Shown here: piece after piece, positions 47,055 through 55,771 of the stretch
Layout: the number at the start of each line of letters is the position of its first letter
Position numbering within the stretch: position 1 is the stretch's first letter
NCBI RefSeq assembly: GCF_000428745.1
Contig: NZ_AUAN01000007.1
Coordinates: 1-64,000, forward strand
DNA: 64,000 bases
Source: Veillonella magna DSM 19857
GTDB taxonomy: Bacteria; Bacillota; Negativicutes; Veillonellales; Veillonellaceae
Direction: 5' to 3'
Translations under genes and position numbers: made by a program
Notes under the pieces: model-generated
Database searches by the model: none
Told to the model about the DNA's origin: nothing
Seen by the model: the letters and a program-made list of their open reading frames with translations, nothing else

Positions 47055-47792
47055 CTAGCGACAATTTAATAGCTCTGCGATATGCATTACTTTGATGCGA
47101 CGGTCAATTTCGCCGTCTTTGTACATACGATCCAACATACCTTCGATATTCATAAGGCATGCCTGGTCGCTACCGGCCACTACGTTTGCGCCGGATTCAT
47201 AAATTGTCATCGCCTTTTCGCGCGTCATAACCGCAGAAATTTCAGGCTGTTTTACCGTAAAGGTACCGCCAAAACCGCAGCAACGTTCTGCACGATGCAT
47301 CGGCAAATATTCGAGACCGCGAATATTTTCGAGAAGTTTCATCGGCTGTTCTTTAATCCCCATAAGACGAGTTACGTGGCAGGACTTGTGGTACGTTACT
47401 TTATCTCTGAAAGTAGCGCCTACATCGGTCACGCCCAATACATCTACGATAAACTGCGTAAATTCATAGATGTGATCGCTCAATCGAGCGGCACGAGCGA
47501 GCCATTCCGGTTCATCTTTTAAAATTTCGCGATATTCATCGCGAATGGCAAAAGCACAGGATCCGGACATGCTTACTACATAATCGGCATTTTCAAAGGT
47601 TTCAATCGTATTCTTGATTGCTGCCTTGGCTGCCTGATTGTAGCCCGAGTTGGTAAACATCTGACCACAGCATACCTGTTTCTTTGGTACCGTGATATCA
47701 CAGCCTAACCGTTCCAGCACCTGTACGCCGGCCATCCCAACGTGGGGATAAAACATGTCAATCAAACATTGTGAAAATAAATGAATTTTCAT
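47055..47792 (-). CDS. lutA: Lactate utilization protein LutA
   Basis: This 245-residue protein has two CCG domains: KKQVCCGQMFTNSGY and RCCGFGGTFTVKQPEIS, with GSCAFAIRDEY and YHKSCHVTRL carrying further Cys ligands. It is the first gene of the lut operon and is preceded by GAGGAAATG. Lactate oxidation to pyruvate is a central entry to metabolism in many Negativicutes. No LutR/LldR regulator or lactate permease is adjacent. Confidence 0.94.
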   Translation of the reverse strand: MKIHLFSQCLIDMFYPHVGMAGVQVLERLGCDITVPKKQVCCGQMFTNSGYNQAAKAAIKNTIETFENADYVVSMSGSCAFAIRDEYREILKDEPEWLARAARLSDHIYEFTQFIVDVLGVTDVGATFRDKVTYHKSCHVTRLMGIKEQPMKLLENIRGLEYLPMHRAERCCGFGGTFTVKQPEISAVMTREKAMTIYESGANVVAGSDQACLMNIEGMLDRMYKDGEIDRRIKVMHIAELLNCR

Positions 47793-48396
47793 TTCCTCAC
47801 ATCCTCAACTTTCCTACGTACTTACACTTTAATTTGATTACCCACACTTGCGTATAACATGTCTCGCAACGCTGCCAGGCAGAGAGGCTTATGTATTCGC
47901 ACGGAAATCATCAATCATCACCATCATTATATAGAATATTTTTATCAAAGTCCAAAGGTTTGCAATATTGGCAAATGTCCCTCTCCATATAACAAAAACG
48001 CATACACATTTTTATATAAAGTAAATACCATTATCCTACTATCCCAGTCAACATAAGGTTTATCATTATATTCTCATTTCAATTCACTTGTTTTAAGTTA
48101 TTGAAAACCAATGACATCGGCAACATATCATCAATTATTTTTATATGCCTTGATTTGTTATTACAACCTTATATTTTCACTATTCAAGCATCATCTTATC
48201 ACTTAACAGATCTCTTTCCAAACACGGATAATTACCTTTTCACATGCTGTTTCCCTATCTTGTATGCATTTCGCTCACACCGTCCTTCCTTGCTGCTAAT
48301 TAAGTTTTGTTGACGAATCACTCACGTCTAATTCATCCCTGCTCTTTATACTATAAATTGGTAAGATAACTGCAGCTAGAGTGTTACTGTGGTTCG
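47793..48396. other. Long AT-rich divergent intergenic region lutA / SLH operon
   Basis: About 600 bases hold no gene I can support. The lut promoter must lie near 47800-47900. The right part is AT-rich and carries no clear hairpin with a T run. Confidence 0.45.
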
Positions 48397-48405
48397 TGAT
48401 ATAAT
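48397..48405 (+). promoter_or_regulatory. Extended -10 promoter of the SLH operon
   Basis: TGATATAAT at 48397-48405 is an extended -10 element with a consensus TATAAT. No good -35 stands at 17 bases. It would give a leader of about 65 bases before the ATG at 48477. Confidence 0.6.
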
Positions 48406-48476
48406 CAGACCTGTATTATTGTTGGTTACATAATGTTGAAAGACAAACTATACACATGAGAAGGGAGTCATATCCT

Positions 48477-49937
48477 ATGAAAAAATCAATTGTATTGCGT
48501 TATGCCGTACTGGCCTCATTAGTTCTTGGCGTAGGCCCCACTGCATCGGCCGCCTACACACCCTCATTGGCTGCTGCCGTTGCCTCTTCCGGTACCGTAA
48601 AAGCCACAGCTACTCAAAGCACGCCAAAGACTGATACGACAACTACCGCAAAAACGGATACCAAAGCCGCTGTATCACCTACTAAAGCTGCCGAAGAAGA
48701 AGTAGCTCGTATTGCGGCAAAGAATAAAAATGTGGCCACCGAAAAAGCCAAAGCTGCTGCTAAGACATTACCGTTCAGCGACATCGACGGTCATTGGGGG
48801 CAGGAAGCCATTCTTTACTTGCACAAAGAAGGCGTGCTCAATGGCTACACCGATGGCACCTTCCGCCCGAACGAAGCCGTGACAACAAACGAATTCACCA
48901 ACATCTTTGCTAAATCGTTGGACATAGCTAAGAAGCGCCTTGCTAAAGCTGACAAAAAAGATTCTGCCAAAGAAAAACATATAACTGCTACTGCAGCTTC
49001 TATTACGGACGGACTCATTACGGATGAAAAAGCCGATGGTATTTCCCGTCAAAAATTCGCTATCGCTGCCGCACGCTATGCCGATGCCTTGGGCATCACC
49101 AATATTCACGGAAAAAAAGCCGTTGCATTCAAAGATGCCGATGAATTCGGAGCCGGCGGTTTGAAAGCGGCTACACAATTAGCCCAAGAAGGCTATATCA
49201 GCGAAGGCGCTGACGTAAGCTTCCGTCCTCATGACTTCATCACCCGTGCGGAAGCTGCCGCTATTTTATATCGAATTGACACCGGTAAGAACATTAATGC
49301 AAAATCCGCTACACCGGCACCAACGGTAACTGCCGTAGCCGATACGAAAGATGCAGACACCATCCTTCGTAAAGAAGCCGCCGAAGAAGGTATTAACAAC
49401 GATGCCGTTGCCACTTCTGCCGAAGCACAGGACACCTTAGTGGATGCTGCTTTCAAAGAACTAAATCGCCTATATAAAACACCGGGCAATATGCAAAATC
49501 ATGGTGTAATGTATTGGAAAGACAATGTACTTCACATTGCATTAAAAAGCCAGGATGATTTGGACAAATTGAATGCACGCATCGAAAAGTTAGCTGCCGA
49601 TGGTAAGCCATTCCTCAAAAACGGAGTTATCACCGAGCCTACTCGTTACAGCCAAGCTGAGTATGATCGCATTACTGCTAACTTTGAGCGCTACTATGCA
49701 CAGCGTCAGCCGGAAGGCAAAGTCGTATCTGCTTACCCGGATGTAGCCCATAACCAACTCATCGTCAACATTGATAAAGATTTCCCATACATGAACGATT
49801 CCATCAAAACTGCCTTTGGTAATAAGGTGCGCGTCTTCTTACTTTCCCCTACCGCCGACACGACATCGGCCAAAGCAGCTGATAAAGCCGGTAATTCATC
49901 TACTGCCGAAACCGCTCCGGCCAAGGAGGACGCATGA
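48477..49937 (+). CDS. Exported SLH-domain protein 1 with novel C-terminal module
   Basis: This 486-residue protein has a signal peptide (MKKSIVLRYAVLASLVLGV..., cleavage near ASAA at about 23-26), an Ala/Thr/Lys-rich linker (30-95), an SLH domain (LPFSDIDGHWGQEAILYLHKEG with YTDGTFRPNEAVTTNEF, about 98-145) and a second SLH-like unit (about 200-265, with FRPHDFITRAEAAAILYRI). A C-terminal module (about 320-460) contains HGVMYWKDNVLHIALK and AYPDVAHNQLIVNI. It matches the end of the next protein. SLH domains in Negativicutes bind diamine-modified peptidoglycan. There is no beta-barrel region, so it is not an OmpM porin. AAGGGAG precedes the start; its stop overlaps the next start. Confidence 0.85.
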   Translation: MKKSIVLRYAVLASLVLGVGPTASAAYTPSLAAAVASSGTVKATATQSTPKTDTTTTAKTDTKAAVSPTKAAEEEVARIAAKNKNVATEKAKAAAKTLPFSDIDGHWGQEAILYLHKEGVLNGYTDGTFRPNEAVTTNEFTNIFAKSLDIAKKRLAKADKKDSAKEKHITATAASITDGLITDEKADGISRQKFAIAAARYADALGITNIHGKKAVAFKDADEFGAGGLKAATQLAQEGYISEGADVSFRPHDFITRAEAAAILYRIDTGKNINAKSATPAPTVTAVADTKDADTILRKEAAEEGINNDAVATSAEAQDTLVDAAFKELNRLYKTPGNMQNHGVMYWKDNVLHIALKSQDDLDKLNARIEKLAADGKPFLKNGVITEPTRYSQAEYDRITANFERYYAQRQPEGKVVSAYPDVAHNQLIVNIDKDFPYMNDSIKTAFGNKVRVFLLSPTADTTSAKAADKAGNSSTAETAPAKEDA

Positions 49938-51337
49938 ATCATTCACGCCATGCGATAACTGCTACATTGGCCGCTTTGCTTGTAACAAGCAGCACAACAT
50001 TAGCGGCTACCGATTCATCCGCGCCGATTACAGTTGTGCGCCCGGTAGTCGCCACGGTTTCCACCGAAACAGCTAAGGATAGCGCTTCAATTCCCGCACC
50101 AATTCGTGTTGTTCGACCAAGTGAGGCTTCAAACGCCATACCGTTTAACGGTATGGTAACTTCAAAAGCAGCCACAGCAGCTGCAATTCAAGGCAATACT
50201 GCCACAACGATACCATCCACTGACAAGAAAGTTGCCACCCACGCCATACACACGACCGGTACAGAAAAATCCGATAAAGCCATGGGTTCCATCGGCCTTG
50301 ATACACTGCGGGAAGCTAAGAAATATATTTTCCGCGATGTTCCCAGTACATATTGGGCCGCACAATCCATTGCTACCATGACGCAACAAAATTTAATCAG
50401 TGGCTACTCCGACGGCACCTTCCGCCCTGATAAACCGTTGACGCGAGAAGAAGCTGCTTCTCTTTTCAGCAAACTCATCAACGAACCGTCAACGGTTATG
50501 ATTTCCAGTACATTCTCGGATATTACTTCCGATCGTTGGTCGGCACTGGCCATCGAAGCGGTAGCTCGTAAAAATATTATCAGTGGCTACGGCGATAATA
50601 CATATCGTCCGGAACAATTCATGTCACGCCAAGAATTTGCAGTGGTAGCCGACAACTACCTACACTATTTGGGTTATGAAACACAGGATCCTACCATCTT
50701 GGACAACATTGCCTACAGCGATCAGAAATTTGTAGCCTCTTGGGCTCAAGATGCTGTGCGCGAACTTGCATCACTTCACTTCCTACATTACAATCCGCGC
50801 AATTTATTTAATCCGGAAAAATATATCACCCGTGCCGAAGCTACGGAAATTACATATCGTATGACACAAGGTGATACAGGCAAAGCCTTTAAGGACACCT
50901 TAATGAAACAAAAAACCGAAGCCGCTGCCGACGCATTAATTGTACGCACCTTTGGTAAAAATTATGATTTCCGTCAGCACGGCGTAAAATATTGGAAAGG
51001 TGACACACTTTGGGTTGCCTTTGCTAATGCGGATGATGCCAAGGAATATGGTGCCGCCATCGCCTTTGCTACTGATAAATCTGATTTACGTCACTTGCGT
51101 TTAACCACGGGACCTTTGACACAGGCTGCTATTGATGACATGCAAACCGATGCAGCCTATGCATATCACCAGGCACTAGCCGACGGTACAATTCTTGACG
51201 TCTATCCCAACACGTCTGTTAAACAGCTCGTTATTGTCGTCAACCATTTGCCGGATGCAGTGAAAAAAGATTTGTCCAAACGCTTTCCGGATGTACAGTT
51301 TATCAGCGAAGCAACTCGTGATTCACTCAGTAAGTAA
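49934..51337 (+). CDS. Exported SLH-domain protein 2, paralogue of protein 1
   Basis: This 467-residue protein starts within the stop of the previous gene (ATGA overlap at 49934-49937), with AAGGAGG in the upstream coding sequence. A signal peptide (about 1-25) is followed by a linker with three IRVVRP/ITVVRPV-like repeats (about 33-70), then SLH units: FRDVPSTYWAAQSIATMTQ with YSDGTFRPDKPLTREEAA, then FSDITSDRWSALAIEAVARK with YGDNTYRPEQFMSRQEF, and a third degenerate unit ending ITRAEATEITYRM. The C-terminal module (about 325-463) has HGVKYWKGDTLWVAFA and VYPNTSVKQLVIVVNHLP. The two genes are coupled and probably act together at the wall-outer-membrane interface. The function of the shared module is unknown. 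Confidence 0.85.
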   Translation: MNHSRHAITATLAALLVTSSTTLAATDSSAPITVVRPVVATVSTETAKDSASIPAPIRVVRPSEASNAIPFNGMVTSKAATAAAIQGNTATTIPSTDKKVATHAIHTTGTEKSDKAMGSIGLDTLREAKKYIFRDVPSTYWAAQSIATMTQQNLISGYSDGTFRPDKPLTREEAASLFSKLINEPSTVMISSTFSDITSDRWSALAIEAVARKNIISGYGDNTYRPEQFMSRQEFAVVADNYLHYLGYETQDPTILDNIAYSDQKFVASWAQDAVRELASLHFLHYNPRNLFNPEKYITRAEATEITYRMTQGDTGKAFKDTLMKQKTEAAADALIVRTFGKNYDFRQHGVKYWKGDTLWVAFANADDAKEYGAAIAFATDKSDLRHLRLTTGPLTQAAIDDMQTDAAYAYHQALADGTILDVYPNTSVKQLVIVVNHLPDAVKKDLSKRFPDVQFISEATRDSLSK

Positions 51338-51428
51338 TATGTACTCATTAATGCCTGCTCACAAGGATAGTCACGTTCACTATCTTACGTAACATGCTTC
51401 TGACAATACATGTCGCACAGTATCAAAC

Positions 51429-51466
51429 AAGAAAAAGGACAGTCAAAAGACTGTCCTTTTTCTTGT
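51429..51466. terminator. Bidirectional terminator of the SLH operon and the DUF3298-like gene
   Basis: GAAAAAGGACAGTC pairs with GACTGTCCTTTTTC around a short loop, with T-rich tails on both strands. It lies between converging genes. Confidence 0.92.
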
Positions 51467-51494
51467 TTTACATCACGTGTAATTTAGCAATATT

Positions 51495-52328
51495 TTATTT
51501 ATCGCTCAACTTTCCCATCGGCAAATACAATGTACCGGCAGCTCGCGCCGCAATGTCACCTTGCTGGAAAATTAAAAATACATTGTGATCTTCTGTAGCA
51601 TAAAACTCTTTCGGCACATTGATATCACGCTGTTTATCCTTCATAATACCGCTGTTCACGGCTGTTTTGAAATCTTCCGGTGCATCCGCCAATGCCTTCT
51701 GCAATTTTTCCTTATTCACTCCGCCAAAATCACTAAGTGATACTCGTTGACCACTGGTGGTATTAAAAGTAAATGCCTTTACAGTGTTATTTCCGTTGGC
51801 TGCTTTATCTTGAATTGTGTAGCTTTTAATAAGAACACTGAACAAACCGTTGCCATTTGCTTTCACATCATATGTAATGTACAAATTGGTAGCGTTGTCA
51901 TTTTTTAAATTTGTCTTAGTCAAATCCTCTTGCAAATCTTCTACATAATTACTAATGGCTTTATTAATTTTTTTCTGTACCGTTTTACTTACCGAGGTCA
52001 CTTCCGGATATGTAATATCCATATGATTTCCTTTTACTGCTACCGGCGACACTCCCACTTGGAGACGCTGATAAAAATTATTCGCATTCGGCGCCATCAC
52101 CATCATGCTGGCGCGCGCTTCTTTGTCACTGTTTTCTCGTACTACTTTATTTGTAGTCGGCGCTGCCGTATCTGAAATTCGCGTACTTACAATCCCCGTT
52201 GTATTAACATTCGGCGATACTTTTACGACAGGCACAGTTTCCGATGTCACGGCCGATGCATCATGAGCCATAGCACCGAAAGGCAACGCCATAACAGCTA
52301 ACATTGCTAACTTCTGAGCATAACGCAT
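51495..52328 (-). CDS. Exported DUF3298/RsiV-like protein
   Basis: This 277-residue protein has a signal peptide (MRYAQKLAMLAVMALPFGAMAHDASA, cleavage near residue 20-26), a Thr/Val-rich linker and a C-terminal domain (about 90-270). It contains MDITYPEV, VQKKINKAISNYVEDLQ, LFSVLIKSYTIQDKA, FNTTSGQRVSLSDFGG and VPKEFYATEDHNVFLIFQQGDIAARAAGTL. This order is that of DUF3298 domains, found in RsiV and PdaC. RsiV binds lysozyme, PdaC trims peptidoglycan, but here no deacetylase domain or anti-sigma TM segment is present, so the role is open. GTGAGG precedes ATG 52328. Confidence 0.82.
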   Translation of the reverse strand: MRYAQKLAMLAVMALPFGAMAHDASAVTSETVPVVKVSPNVNTTGIVSTRISDTAAPTTNKVVRENSDKEARASMMVMAPNANNFYQRLQVGVSPVAVKGNHMDITYPEVTSVSKTVQKKINKAISNYVEDLQEDLTKTNLKNDNATNLYITYDVKANGNGLFSVLIKSYTIQDKAANGNNTVKAFTFNTTSGQRVSLSDFGGVNKEKLQKALADAPEDFKTAVNSGIMKDKQRDINVPKEFYATEDHNVFLIFQQGDIAARAAGTLYLPMGKLSDK

Positions 52329-52536
52329 ATATTCCTCACTTCCTCCGATTACTACATCGGTACACACAACACATAACGATGATACTTGCTAATTATGTAT
52401 ATTATCGCATAAGACTATGAATTTTTCATTAAGACACCCATTATACATTTAGTTTATTCTGTCATTGTCTTTCAAGAAAAGATATTTATTTCATTTTTGC
52501 ACTACAATTCTCCCTACAACAAACACATCTCTATGT

Positions 52537-54924: not shown

Positions 54925-55632
54925 TTATTTCTGTATCGTTGCGGTAGTACCCTCCGCAGCCTCTTCATCCTGCCGGGCAGATATTTCGGTGGTTTCCTTA
55001 ACAGTCGTATCAGCGTCTGTTACTATCGGTTGATTCTGCGCTGTTGACTCAGCCGGCATCATAGTTGTCATCGGTGCTGCCGGTTGTGCCTGTGCAAAAT
55101 TAGTCGCAATGACCTGACCGGTAACCGCATCAAGCGACACGTCATAAACTACACCTTCATGAGTAGCCAAAGCTCTGTATATCGGGTGAAGGGCTACTTG
55201 CGATACAGGTGCTTTCACCTGAATTAAAGAAATATCCTTGAATGCAAGCTGATCCTCCGGTATATTAACAGTTTTTGCTACAATACTGCGTGCTGTCGTT
55301 TCATCCAATATGGCCATCTGCTGGTGCTTTACTTTATTTGTCGTTGCCTGCTGCAAATTAGTTGACTGTTGTTCTGCGGCTGTCTGATTCTCTGCTACCG
55401 GTTGCGCCTGTACATTTTCTGCCATTGCTTCATCGGTAGCTGTCATTGATGCACTCGGTGTTGCCGGCGATGCCTGCACATCATAAGATGCCGCACTACT
55501 GATACCAAAACCACCCATCACCGTTAATGCTAATGCTCCAGCAAAGGCTCGGCGACCCCATGTCTTGTAATGTACAGGAGATACGCTGCTCTTGATCTGT
55601 GTCATAGTTGCTTTTGTTTCTGTCTGTTTCAT
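54925..55632 (-). CDS. Exported PepSY-domain protein
   Basis: This protein of about 235 residues has a basic N-terminus, then a hydrophobic signal or anchor (about 29-48, FAGALALTVMGGFGISSAAS). A Gln/Ala/Thr-rich linker leads to a PepSY domain (about 105-180, DETTARSIVAKTVNIPEDQLAF to EGVVYDVSLDAVTGQVIA), and a second Thr/Ala-rich tail follows. PepSY domains often inhibit or bind peptidases in the envelope. ATG at 55632 has GAGG eight bases upstream, better than ATG 55638. The long N-terminal extension before the hydrophobic part is unusual for a signal peptide. Confidence 0.82.
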   Translation of the reverse strand: MKQTETKATMTQIKSSVSPVHYKTWGRRAFAGALALTVMGGFGISSAASYDVQASPATPSASMTATDEAMAENVQAQPVAENQTAAEQQSTNLQQATTNKVKHQQMAILDETTARSIVAKTVNIPEDQLAFKDISLIQVKAPVSQVALHPIYRALATHEGVVYDVSLDAVTGQVIATNFAQAQPAAPMTTMMPAESTAQNQPIVTDADTTVKETTEISARQDEEAAEGTTATIQK

Positions 55633-55771
55633 ATACATTCCTCACCTTTCTGTTCATATCTATATACATCATACATAAGACTATACATCGTCTTTATTTA
55701 CTATGTATTAAATTATATATCAACAATATGAAAATATAGTGAAGATAGTTATAATATGCATTCCACAACTA

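Follow-up and report, generated by a model that had tools for sequence, protein, structure and literature searches.

A paired set of exported SLH proteins with a shared two-lobed C-terminal module in Veillonella magna: predicted wall-anchored periplasmic adaptors of the Veillonella and Megasphaera families

The Negativicutes are key to understanding how an outer membrane is retained or lost among relatives of Gram-positive bacteria, and the tether studied in this class is OmpM. According to the accessible text of one report, negativicute OmpM conserves two tyrosines that may bind polyamine, SLH domains outside OmpM lack this conservation, and the arginine of the TRAE motif contacts ketal-pyruvate in SpaA (PMC10628300). 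A second group of SLH proteins was noticed in V. parvula DSM 2008, where Vpar_1653 and Vpar_1654, with three SLH repeats each, are clustered with Vpar_1655, a DUF4163 protein (PMC5491611, 2017). All three products were recovered in both the outer-membrane and the surface-tagged fractions, which comprised 990 and 849 proteins, had known false positives, and included ribosomal proteins as well as, in both, the periplasmic LptA (PMC5491611). As far as the accessible part of that study states, its authors recognized no further domain in Vpar_1653 and Vpar_1654, did not find the three-gene cluster outside Veillonella, and knew of no classical S-layer documented in this genus, the abundance being judged too low for a complete one (PMC5491611).

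The window analyzed here, a stretch of 64,000 nucleotides from Veillonella magna DSM 19857 (contig NZ_AUAN01000007.1), contains two adjacent genes for exported SLH proteins that share a C-terminal module and appear to be the counterparts of Vpar_1653 and Vpar_1654. We infer this identity through V. parvula SKV38, because the module-bearing pair of that strain comprises its only triple-SLH proteins among the 14 repeats found, a PdaC-like gene lies next to the pair (28.0 bits, just under the cut-off of 29.1; a second, stronger PdaC protein is encoded elsewhere in the genome), and the gene for VtaI, equated with Vpar_1664 in PMC7549365, is located some 14 kb away from the pair. The description of the system as undescribed in the earlier note was therefore too strong, since the V. 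parvula pair and its DUF4163 neighbor were reported as a cluster in 2017, in the part of the study accessible to us (PMC5491611). No functional study of the pair was found in the Veillonella and Negativicutes literature covered, which mostly excluded subscription papers and in which a single paper names Vpar_1653, Vpar_1654, and Vpar_1655. What was already known is the existence of the pair in V. parvula; what is new is the delimitation and modeling of the module and the presence of the pair in the Megasphaera family.

Both genes lie on the forward strand. The first (P0001) occupies 48477-49937 and encodes 486 residues with the stop trimmed, and the second (P0002) occupies 49934-51337 and encodes 467 residues. 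The stop of the first overlaps the start of the second in an ATGA tetranucleotide at 49934-49937, and the gene positions and four-base overlap originally proposed are correct. An alternative in-frame ATG of the first gene is present at 48456, the ATG taken being that at 48477. The first protein consists, in order, of a signal segment, a spacer rich in Ala, Thr, and Lys, SLH repeats (repeat 1 at 48771-48884, in which Thr replaces the Arg of TRxE; a degenerate repeat 2; repeat 3 at 49128-49259), a linker, and the C-terminal module (49398-49853 as modeled). In the second protein, a signal segment and approximately 100 residues of low model confidence are followed by three SLH repeats (50330-50458, 50510-50641, and 50714-50842), a linker, and the module, which spans residues 313-460 in the model (50870-51313). 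The linker preceding the module is longer in the first protein and short in the second. In a promoter and terminator scan of 47700-52500, 17 promoter-like sites were counted vs 10.5 expected, and two terminator-like sites vs 4.4 expected.

Export and an SLH head, which had been read from the letters alone, are well grounded. Each N-terminus carries a hydrophobic signal-like segment, and Pfam assigns two SLH repeats to the first protein and three to the second, with PF00395 scores of 77.9 and 121.4 bits (E values of 5e-22 and 2e-35), respectively, vs a cut-off of 20.8; SLH was the only family above cut-off in the Pfam scan of both proteins. The model of the second protein reproduces the SLH trimer fold, aligning 178 residues with 3pyw (Z 21.9, rmsd 2.5) and matching the SLH structures of B. 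anthracis Sap and P. alvei SpaA at Z values of 18-22. Across 25 loci, namely the window and 24 from relatives, SLH repeats precede the module in all 50 proteins. Repeat 2 of the first protein, degenerate in the window, is also poorly matched in the genus of the window, where most of it has been lost from the first type.

The residues retained within these repeats bear on the ligand by which the wall would be held. With 25 proteins of each type compared, the Arg of TRxE is retained in 75/75 repeats of the second type and in 69/75 of the first, the six losses all falling in repeat 1 of the first type in the window and five relatives from its genus. A Trp of the binding groove occurs in all three second-type repeats in 18/18 rows of the Veillonella group and in 0/7 Megasphaera rows, and is absent at repeat 3 of the first type. 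The tyrosines of OmpM are scarce: of the four repeats tested at position W+2, one shows a Tyr, in a single protein out of 25, and TRxE is free of Tyr in all six repeats, with 25 proteins compared for each, in agreement with the remark in the accessible text of PMC10628300 on non-OmpM SLH domains. Among 60 genomes of the order, 59 score above the cut-off of the NCBIfam model of CsaB, the exception being a genome 75% complete, and 4 of 14 control genomes pass it as well. CsaB is present across the order, including genomes in which the pair is absent, and therefore does not track the pair; this, together with the missing groove Trp and the lost repeat-1 Arg, speaks against a pyruvylated ligand. 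Since the TRxE Arg is conserved and CsaB is generally present, a pyruvylated glycan is a likelier ligand than a polyaminated stem peptide; we thus predict a pyruvylated wall glycan as the likely SLH ligand of the pair, and these features, together with the scarce OmpM tyrosines, suggest a wall ligand that may differ from that of OmpM. The near-universal CsaB also raises the question of which pyruvylated polymer, if any, is present in the walls of this order.

The relationship between the two C-termini, each said in the earlier note to end in a common module of about 140 residues, holds up: the module-vs-module alignment scores 107, compared with a mean of 29.2 (s.d. 5.2, maximum 60) in 1000 shuffles of one partner, and the whole proteins align over 365 residues with 23% identity (E 2e-23). 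Of the three motifs originally spelled out, HGVxYWKxxxLxxA is exact in both proteins; the other two are only approximate, as the AxxDxxxAxxY stretch differs between the proteins, which have QAxxDx8YxQx4G in common when read by eye, and the YPxxxxxQLIV pattern ends in QLVIV in the second protein. Across 50 relatives, strict invariance is limited to a G, a W, and an L in the first hairpin, and one Glu and one Pro come close to it. The absence of a convincing match to a named domain was borne out by the profile check, since Pfam and NCBIfam scans of the 50 modules returned only scattered weak names, the best NCBIfam match being elongation factor P (E 1.7e-4, in 6 of 50 members), with 23 Pfam families matched by any member at E up to 1. 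A sequence-profile search of the PDB with the module gave nothing under E 0.1, and none of 76 pattern matches in viral contigs encodes a relative.

Structure prediction, which the earlier note had proposed as a check, yielded a confident module with the same topology in both paralogues. The AlphaFold2 model of the first protein's module, built from 50 aligned modules, has a mean pLDDT of 91.2 and a pTM of 0.80, and comprises two alpha-beta-beta-alpha-beta lobes, that is, helix, two strands, helix, and strand, with this order repeated once more. The full model of the second protein places a module with the same order of helices and strands behind the SLH head, its first 118 residues having pLDDT below 50. 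A duplication of one lobe within the module was considered and is unsupported by sequence, because hhalign comparison of the lobe profiles gave no meaningful match (lobe 1 vs lobe 2, probability at most 2.3%).

Comparisons with known folds place the module among familiar alpha/beta arrangements, with weak likeness and no demonstrated kinship to any known family. No Foldseek match to the PDB has an E value below 0.001 (best 3.3e-3, with a poor TM-score) and the VIA-align Z values fall below 8, a level at which, by the program's own caution, a match can reflect merely a common arrangement. The viral fold library likewise gave no E value below 0.001. The top VIA-align row is the KH domain of the archaeal FttA complex (9bct_J, Z 7.1), which spans 64 residues in the second lobe only; ribosomal S3 domains match module residues 82-152 at Z 6-7, and PrgH matches residues 11-82 at Z 5.9. 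The RBM, KH, and BON folds all appear in these comparisons as partial or weak matches.

The module was traced with a profile built from 34 modules and run against 380 Negativicutes genomes, of which 44 contain it, all in two families. It occurs in 28/28 listed genomes of the window's own family and 16/17 of the Megasphaera family, these tallies referring to itemized genomes, with 316 matchless genomes of the 380 not itemized by family. Carriers at the 24 loci include Veillonella (V. parvula, V. atypica, V. ratti, V. seminalis, V. montpellierensis, and others) and Megasphaera. A sample of 398 genomes from the phylum contained four carriers, all in the same two families, together with one doubtful further match (E 0.006). 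In the genomes searched, the module is thus restricted to these two families, that of Veillonella and that of Megasphaera, and an envelope system of the Negativicutes, as first suggested, is too wide a description. Absence of the pair from close relatives had been named as grounds for rejecting the proposal; the pair is present in them as adjacent genes. Of the 44 genomes, 37 have at least two adjacent modules, on one contig and the same strand, 0.9 to 3.4 kb apart, and the seven genomes with a single module comprise six of one related genus and one in which the adjoining stretch lies outside the sequence covered. At both loci inspected in that genus, the lone module belongs to the second type. 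A two-part structure is doubtful as an obligate arrangement because these six genomes have a single module; the single-copy genus suggests that two copies are not obligatory.

The trees bear on how the pair arose. In a tree of the 50 modules, the two Megasphaera copies cluster together, as do the two Veillonella copies. Forcing the second-type copies together costs 14 log units with all 50 modules (p-AU 0.063) and 12.5 log units with near full-length proteins (32 of 50 rows; p-AU 0.009). These sequence trees favor tandem duplications that occurred separately in the two families but do not prove them, because long branches are flagged and p-AU values are 0.063 and 0.009. A single ancient duplication is disfavored by trees that group the copies by family rather than by type. 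If the recurrent pairing is true, it would hint that two copies are useful.

The four-base overlap occurs only in the window among the 25 loci, the genes of the 24 relatives' loci being separated by 11 to 1926 bases: 12-183 bases in Veillonella proper (11 loci), 11-21 bases in the Megasphaera group (seven loci), and approximately 1.8-1.9 kb in six loci with an intervening gene for a PMT-family glycosyltransferase, two of these intervening proteins having been scanned. Such a gene lies between the pair in 6 of 20 loci. At a seventh it adjoins the second gene, the expected place of the first being outside the sequence covered; all seven loci belong to the genus of the window or a sister genus. 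From this gene arrangement, the pair may be O-glycosylated by a PMT-type enzyme, but the spacers are not clearly richer in Thr and Ser where the PMT gene intervenes, and three PMT homologues (41-45% identity) are encoded at other places in the window genome.

In 16 loci of the window's family, the pair stands divergent beside three genes that include one for a LutB/LldF-type lactate oxidation protein, and in four loci of the Megasphaera group it occupies another genomic setting. In the window, a convergent gene on the reverse strand (51495-52367) encodes an exported protein with PdaC and DUF3298 domains, DUF4163 presumably being the older name of PdaC. In V. parvula, this neighbor probably corresponds to the third member of the published cluster, and it may belong to one system with the pair. 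The third gene does not adjoin the pair in the four Megasphaera-family loci inspected.

Taken together, we propose with moderate confidence that the two proteins are paralogous, exported, wall-anchored periplasmic adaptors whose module is predicted to bind a partner. Both proteins would be exported by Sec and remain soluble between wall and outer membrane, where the SLH grooves would hold the wall non-covalently, through a pyruvylated glycan more probably than through the polyaminated stem peptide of OmpM. The module would serve as the binding surface for a protein partner, candidates for which are a protein of the outer membrane, the other paralogue, and an enzyme acting on the wall. The pair would thus act as a bracket positioning this partner at the wall and not as a membrane-inserted tether; the fold likeness behind protein binding by the module is weak, as described above, and counts against this reading. 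Neither window protein contains a cysteine or a second hydrophobic span, and no beta-barrel is predicted in the first protein's module or the full model of the second, the module being mixed alpha/beta and of about 140 residues. In a lipobox test of 50 relatives' proteins, a Cys was found within the first 14 residues in eight, preceded by Gly, Ala, or Ser in a single case, a Ser at residue 3 of an over-long start. The presence of the V. parvula counterparts in the outer-membrane and surface-tagged fractions is compatible with the adaptor role, the evidence of location being weak since these fractions are broad and impure.

Other readings of the same data differ mainly in where the proteins sit and what they touch. 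The earlier note inferred a structure tying wall to outer membrane, in which case the pair would be a second direct tether beside OmpM; the proteins are exported and carry SLH domains, their probable counterparts co-fractionate with the V. parvula outer membrane in the accessible part of the study (PMC5491611), and the module, with its two lobes carried on a linker, could extend as far as a membrane protein. The claim is nevertheless unsupported, as the proteins have no lipid anchor, no second membrane span, and no predicted barrel; with no cysteine, second span, or barrel, any link to the outer membrane would need a partner, and we regard a direct tether as unlikely. If the proteins were instead located outside the outer membrane, they could form or decorate a surface coat. 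The triple SLH head is an S-layer protein architecture, the PMT-type genes described above would fit such a coat, biotin tagging of intact cells captured the counterparts (PMC5491611), and 'S-layer proteins' are reported among abundant Veillonella transcripts, with S-layer-associated genes up-regulated, entries that may refer to the pair or to OmpM (PMC4374535). However, SLH ligands lie at the wall, beneath the outer membrane; ribosomal and periplasmic proteins were likewise present in the tagged fraction, and no classical S-layer is known in Veillonella, where abundance was too low for a complete layer, in the text accessible to us (PMC5491611). A coat outside the outer membrane is consequently rather improbable.

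Two further possibilities arise from the fold of the module. The alpha-lytic protease pro region is the sole PDB protein aligned over most of it (3pro_C, 118/152 residues, Z 6.9, rmsd 3.8 in VIA-align), and the paralogue model also matches 4pro_C (Foldseek probability 1.00, E 5.9e-3) and 2pro_A (Z 5.7, 131 aligned, rmsd 5.1), so that the module, anchored to the wall through SLH, might act on a periplasmic protease as a pro-region-like foldase or inhibitor. Against this, a Z value below 8 may reflect a common arrangement, the KH domain ranks higher and ribosomal S3 domains score nearly alike, PF02983, which we take to be the alpha-lytic protease pro domain, is not among the 23 Pfam families matched by the 50 members, and no serine protease was named among seven scanned neighbor genes, one of which had no match; a role as foldase or inhibitor therefore seems quite unlikely. 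BON domains have the alpha-beta-beta-alpha-beta order of the module's lobes, and BON-like lobes could bind inner-leaflet phospholipid of the outer membrane, like E. coli DolP, and form a wall-to-lipid bridge. DolP does turn up far down among the Foldseek matches of the second model (6xmv, E 0.22; 7a2d, E 0.34), but its TM-score is very low (0.14), no BON family appears among the matches of the 50 members, and the BON sequence pattern differs from the invariant G, W, and L of the module, leaving such a bridge very improbable.

The adaptor proposal can be extended into a more speculative picture, unlikely as a whole, in which two anchoring chemistries would operate beneath a single outer membrane: OmpM would use polyaminated peptidoglycan, and the pair a CsaB-pyruvylated wall glycan. 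The paralogues would then form a two-part bracket whose new two-lobed adaptor domain grips a complex of the outer membrane or of wall synthesis; this system would have arisen in the Veillonella and Megasphaera families, with duplication perhaps separate in each. A second conserved wall-anchored set, carrying a domain that lacks a family name and possibly using another ligand, would be a testable part of the envelope in the genetically tractable V. parvula.

Compared with known systems, the module resembles the alpha-lytic protease pro region (2pro, 3pro, 4pro) in that most of its length can be aligned, and differs in the weak Z, in the lack of a detected sequence relationship, and in the lack of an attached protease in the pair. 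The single-chain triple SLH head is shared with the S-layer proteins Sap and SpaA (Z 18-22 for the second-protein model), whereas the C-terminal module is of another kind and the V. parvula counterparts are described as low in abundance (PMC5491611, accessible part). OmpM is likewise an exported SLH protein that grips the wall from the outer-membrane side, but it carries one SLH unit per chain, trimerizes, and inserts a beta-barrel, as given in the accessible text of PMC10628300; the pair has three SLH units per chain and no predicted barrel, and the tyrosines proposed to bind polyamine in OmpM are nearly absent from it. A further likeness is to Vpar_1653, Vpar_1654, and Vpar_1655, in that two triple-SLH proteins and a DUF4163-type gene are also present at the window (the latter at 51495-52367), with the difference that the window genes overlap by four bases and the genes at relatives' loci are spaced apart.

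The gene neighbouring the pair of SLH proteins in the window (51495-52367, minus strand) encodes an exported protein in which PdaC and DUF3298 domains were matched, while its RsiV-like match remained below threshold, scoring 20.6 bits against the 250 required. Because RsiV binds lysozyme, this protein may have a free-standing lysozyme-binding role adjoining the wall proteins. A further exported protein of 237 residues (54925-55638, minus strand) had no match at E < 0.1 in Pfam or NCBIfam; by eye, its middle part resembles a PepSY domain.

Among relatives, the N-terminal spacer of the first SLH protein carries repeated units around VDTSVKNDAKR in the Veillonella parvula group, where the protein varies in length (599, 633, and 577 residues at loci L071, L072, and L073, respectively), and this repeat-bearing spacer is possibly length-variable. 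In sister species, a PMT-family glycosyltransferase gene is inserted between the pair of SLH genes (locus L060, 6500-8197; equivalents in L059 and L061-L064). Irregular copies of the shared C-terminal module include an extra partial copy in one genome (G015, contig C7, 98438-98632) and a first-type copy split into two pieces in another (G059, contig C54, 8339-8741).

With respect to wall chemistry, a curated-model match identified a CsaB-type pyruvyltransferase gene in the window's own genome (locus L121, contig C1, 636934-637851), and such enzymes exceeded the curated cut-off in 59 of 60 genomes of the Veillonella order. This is so even though the ligand described for OmpM in the Veillonella group is polyaminated peptidoglycan.
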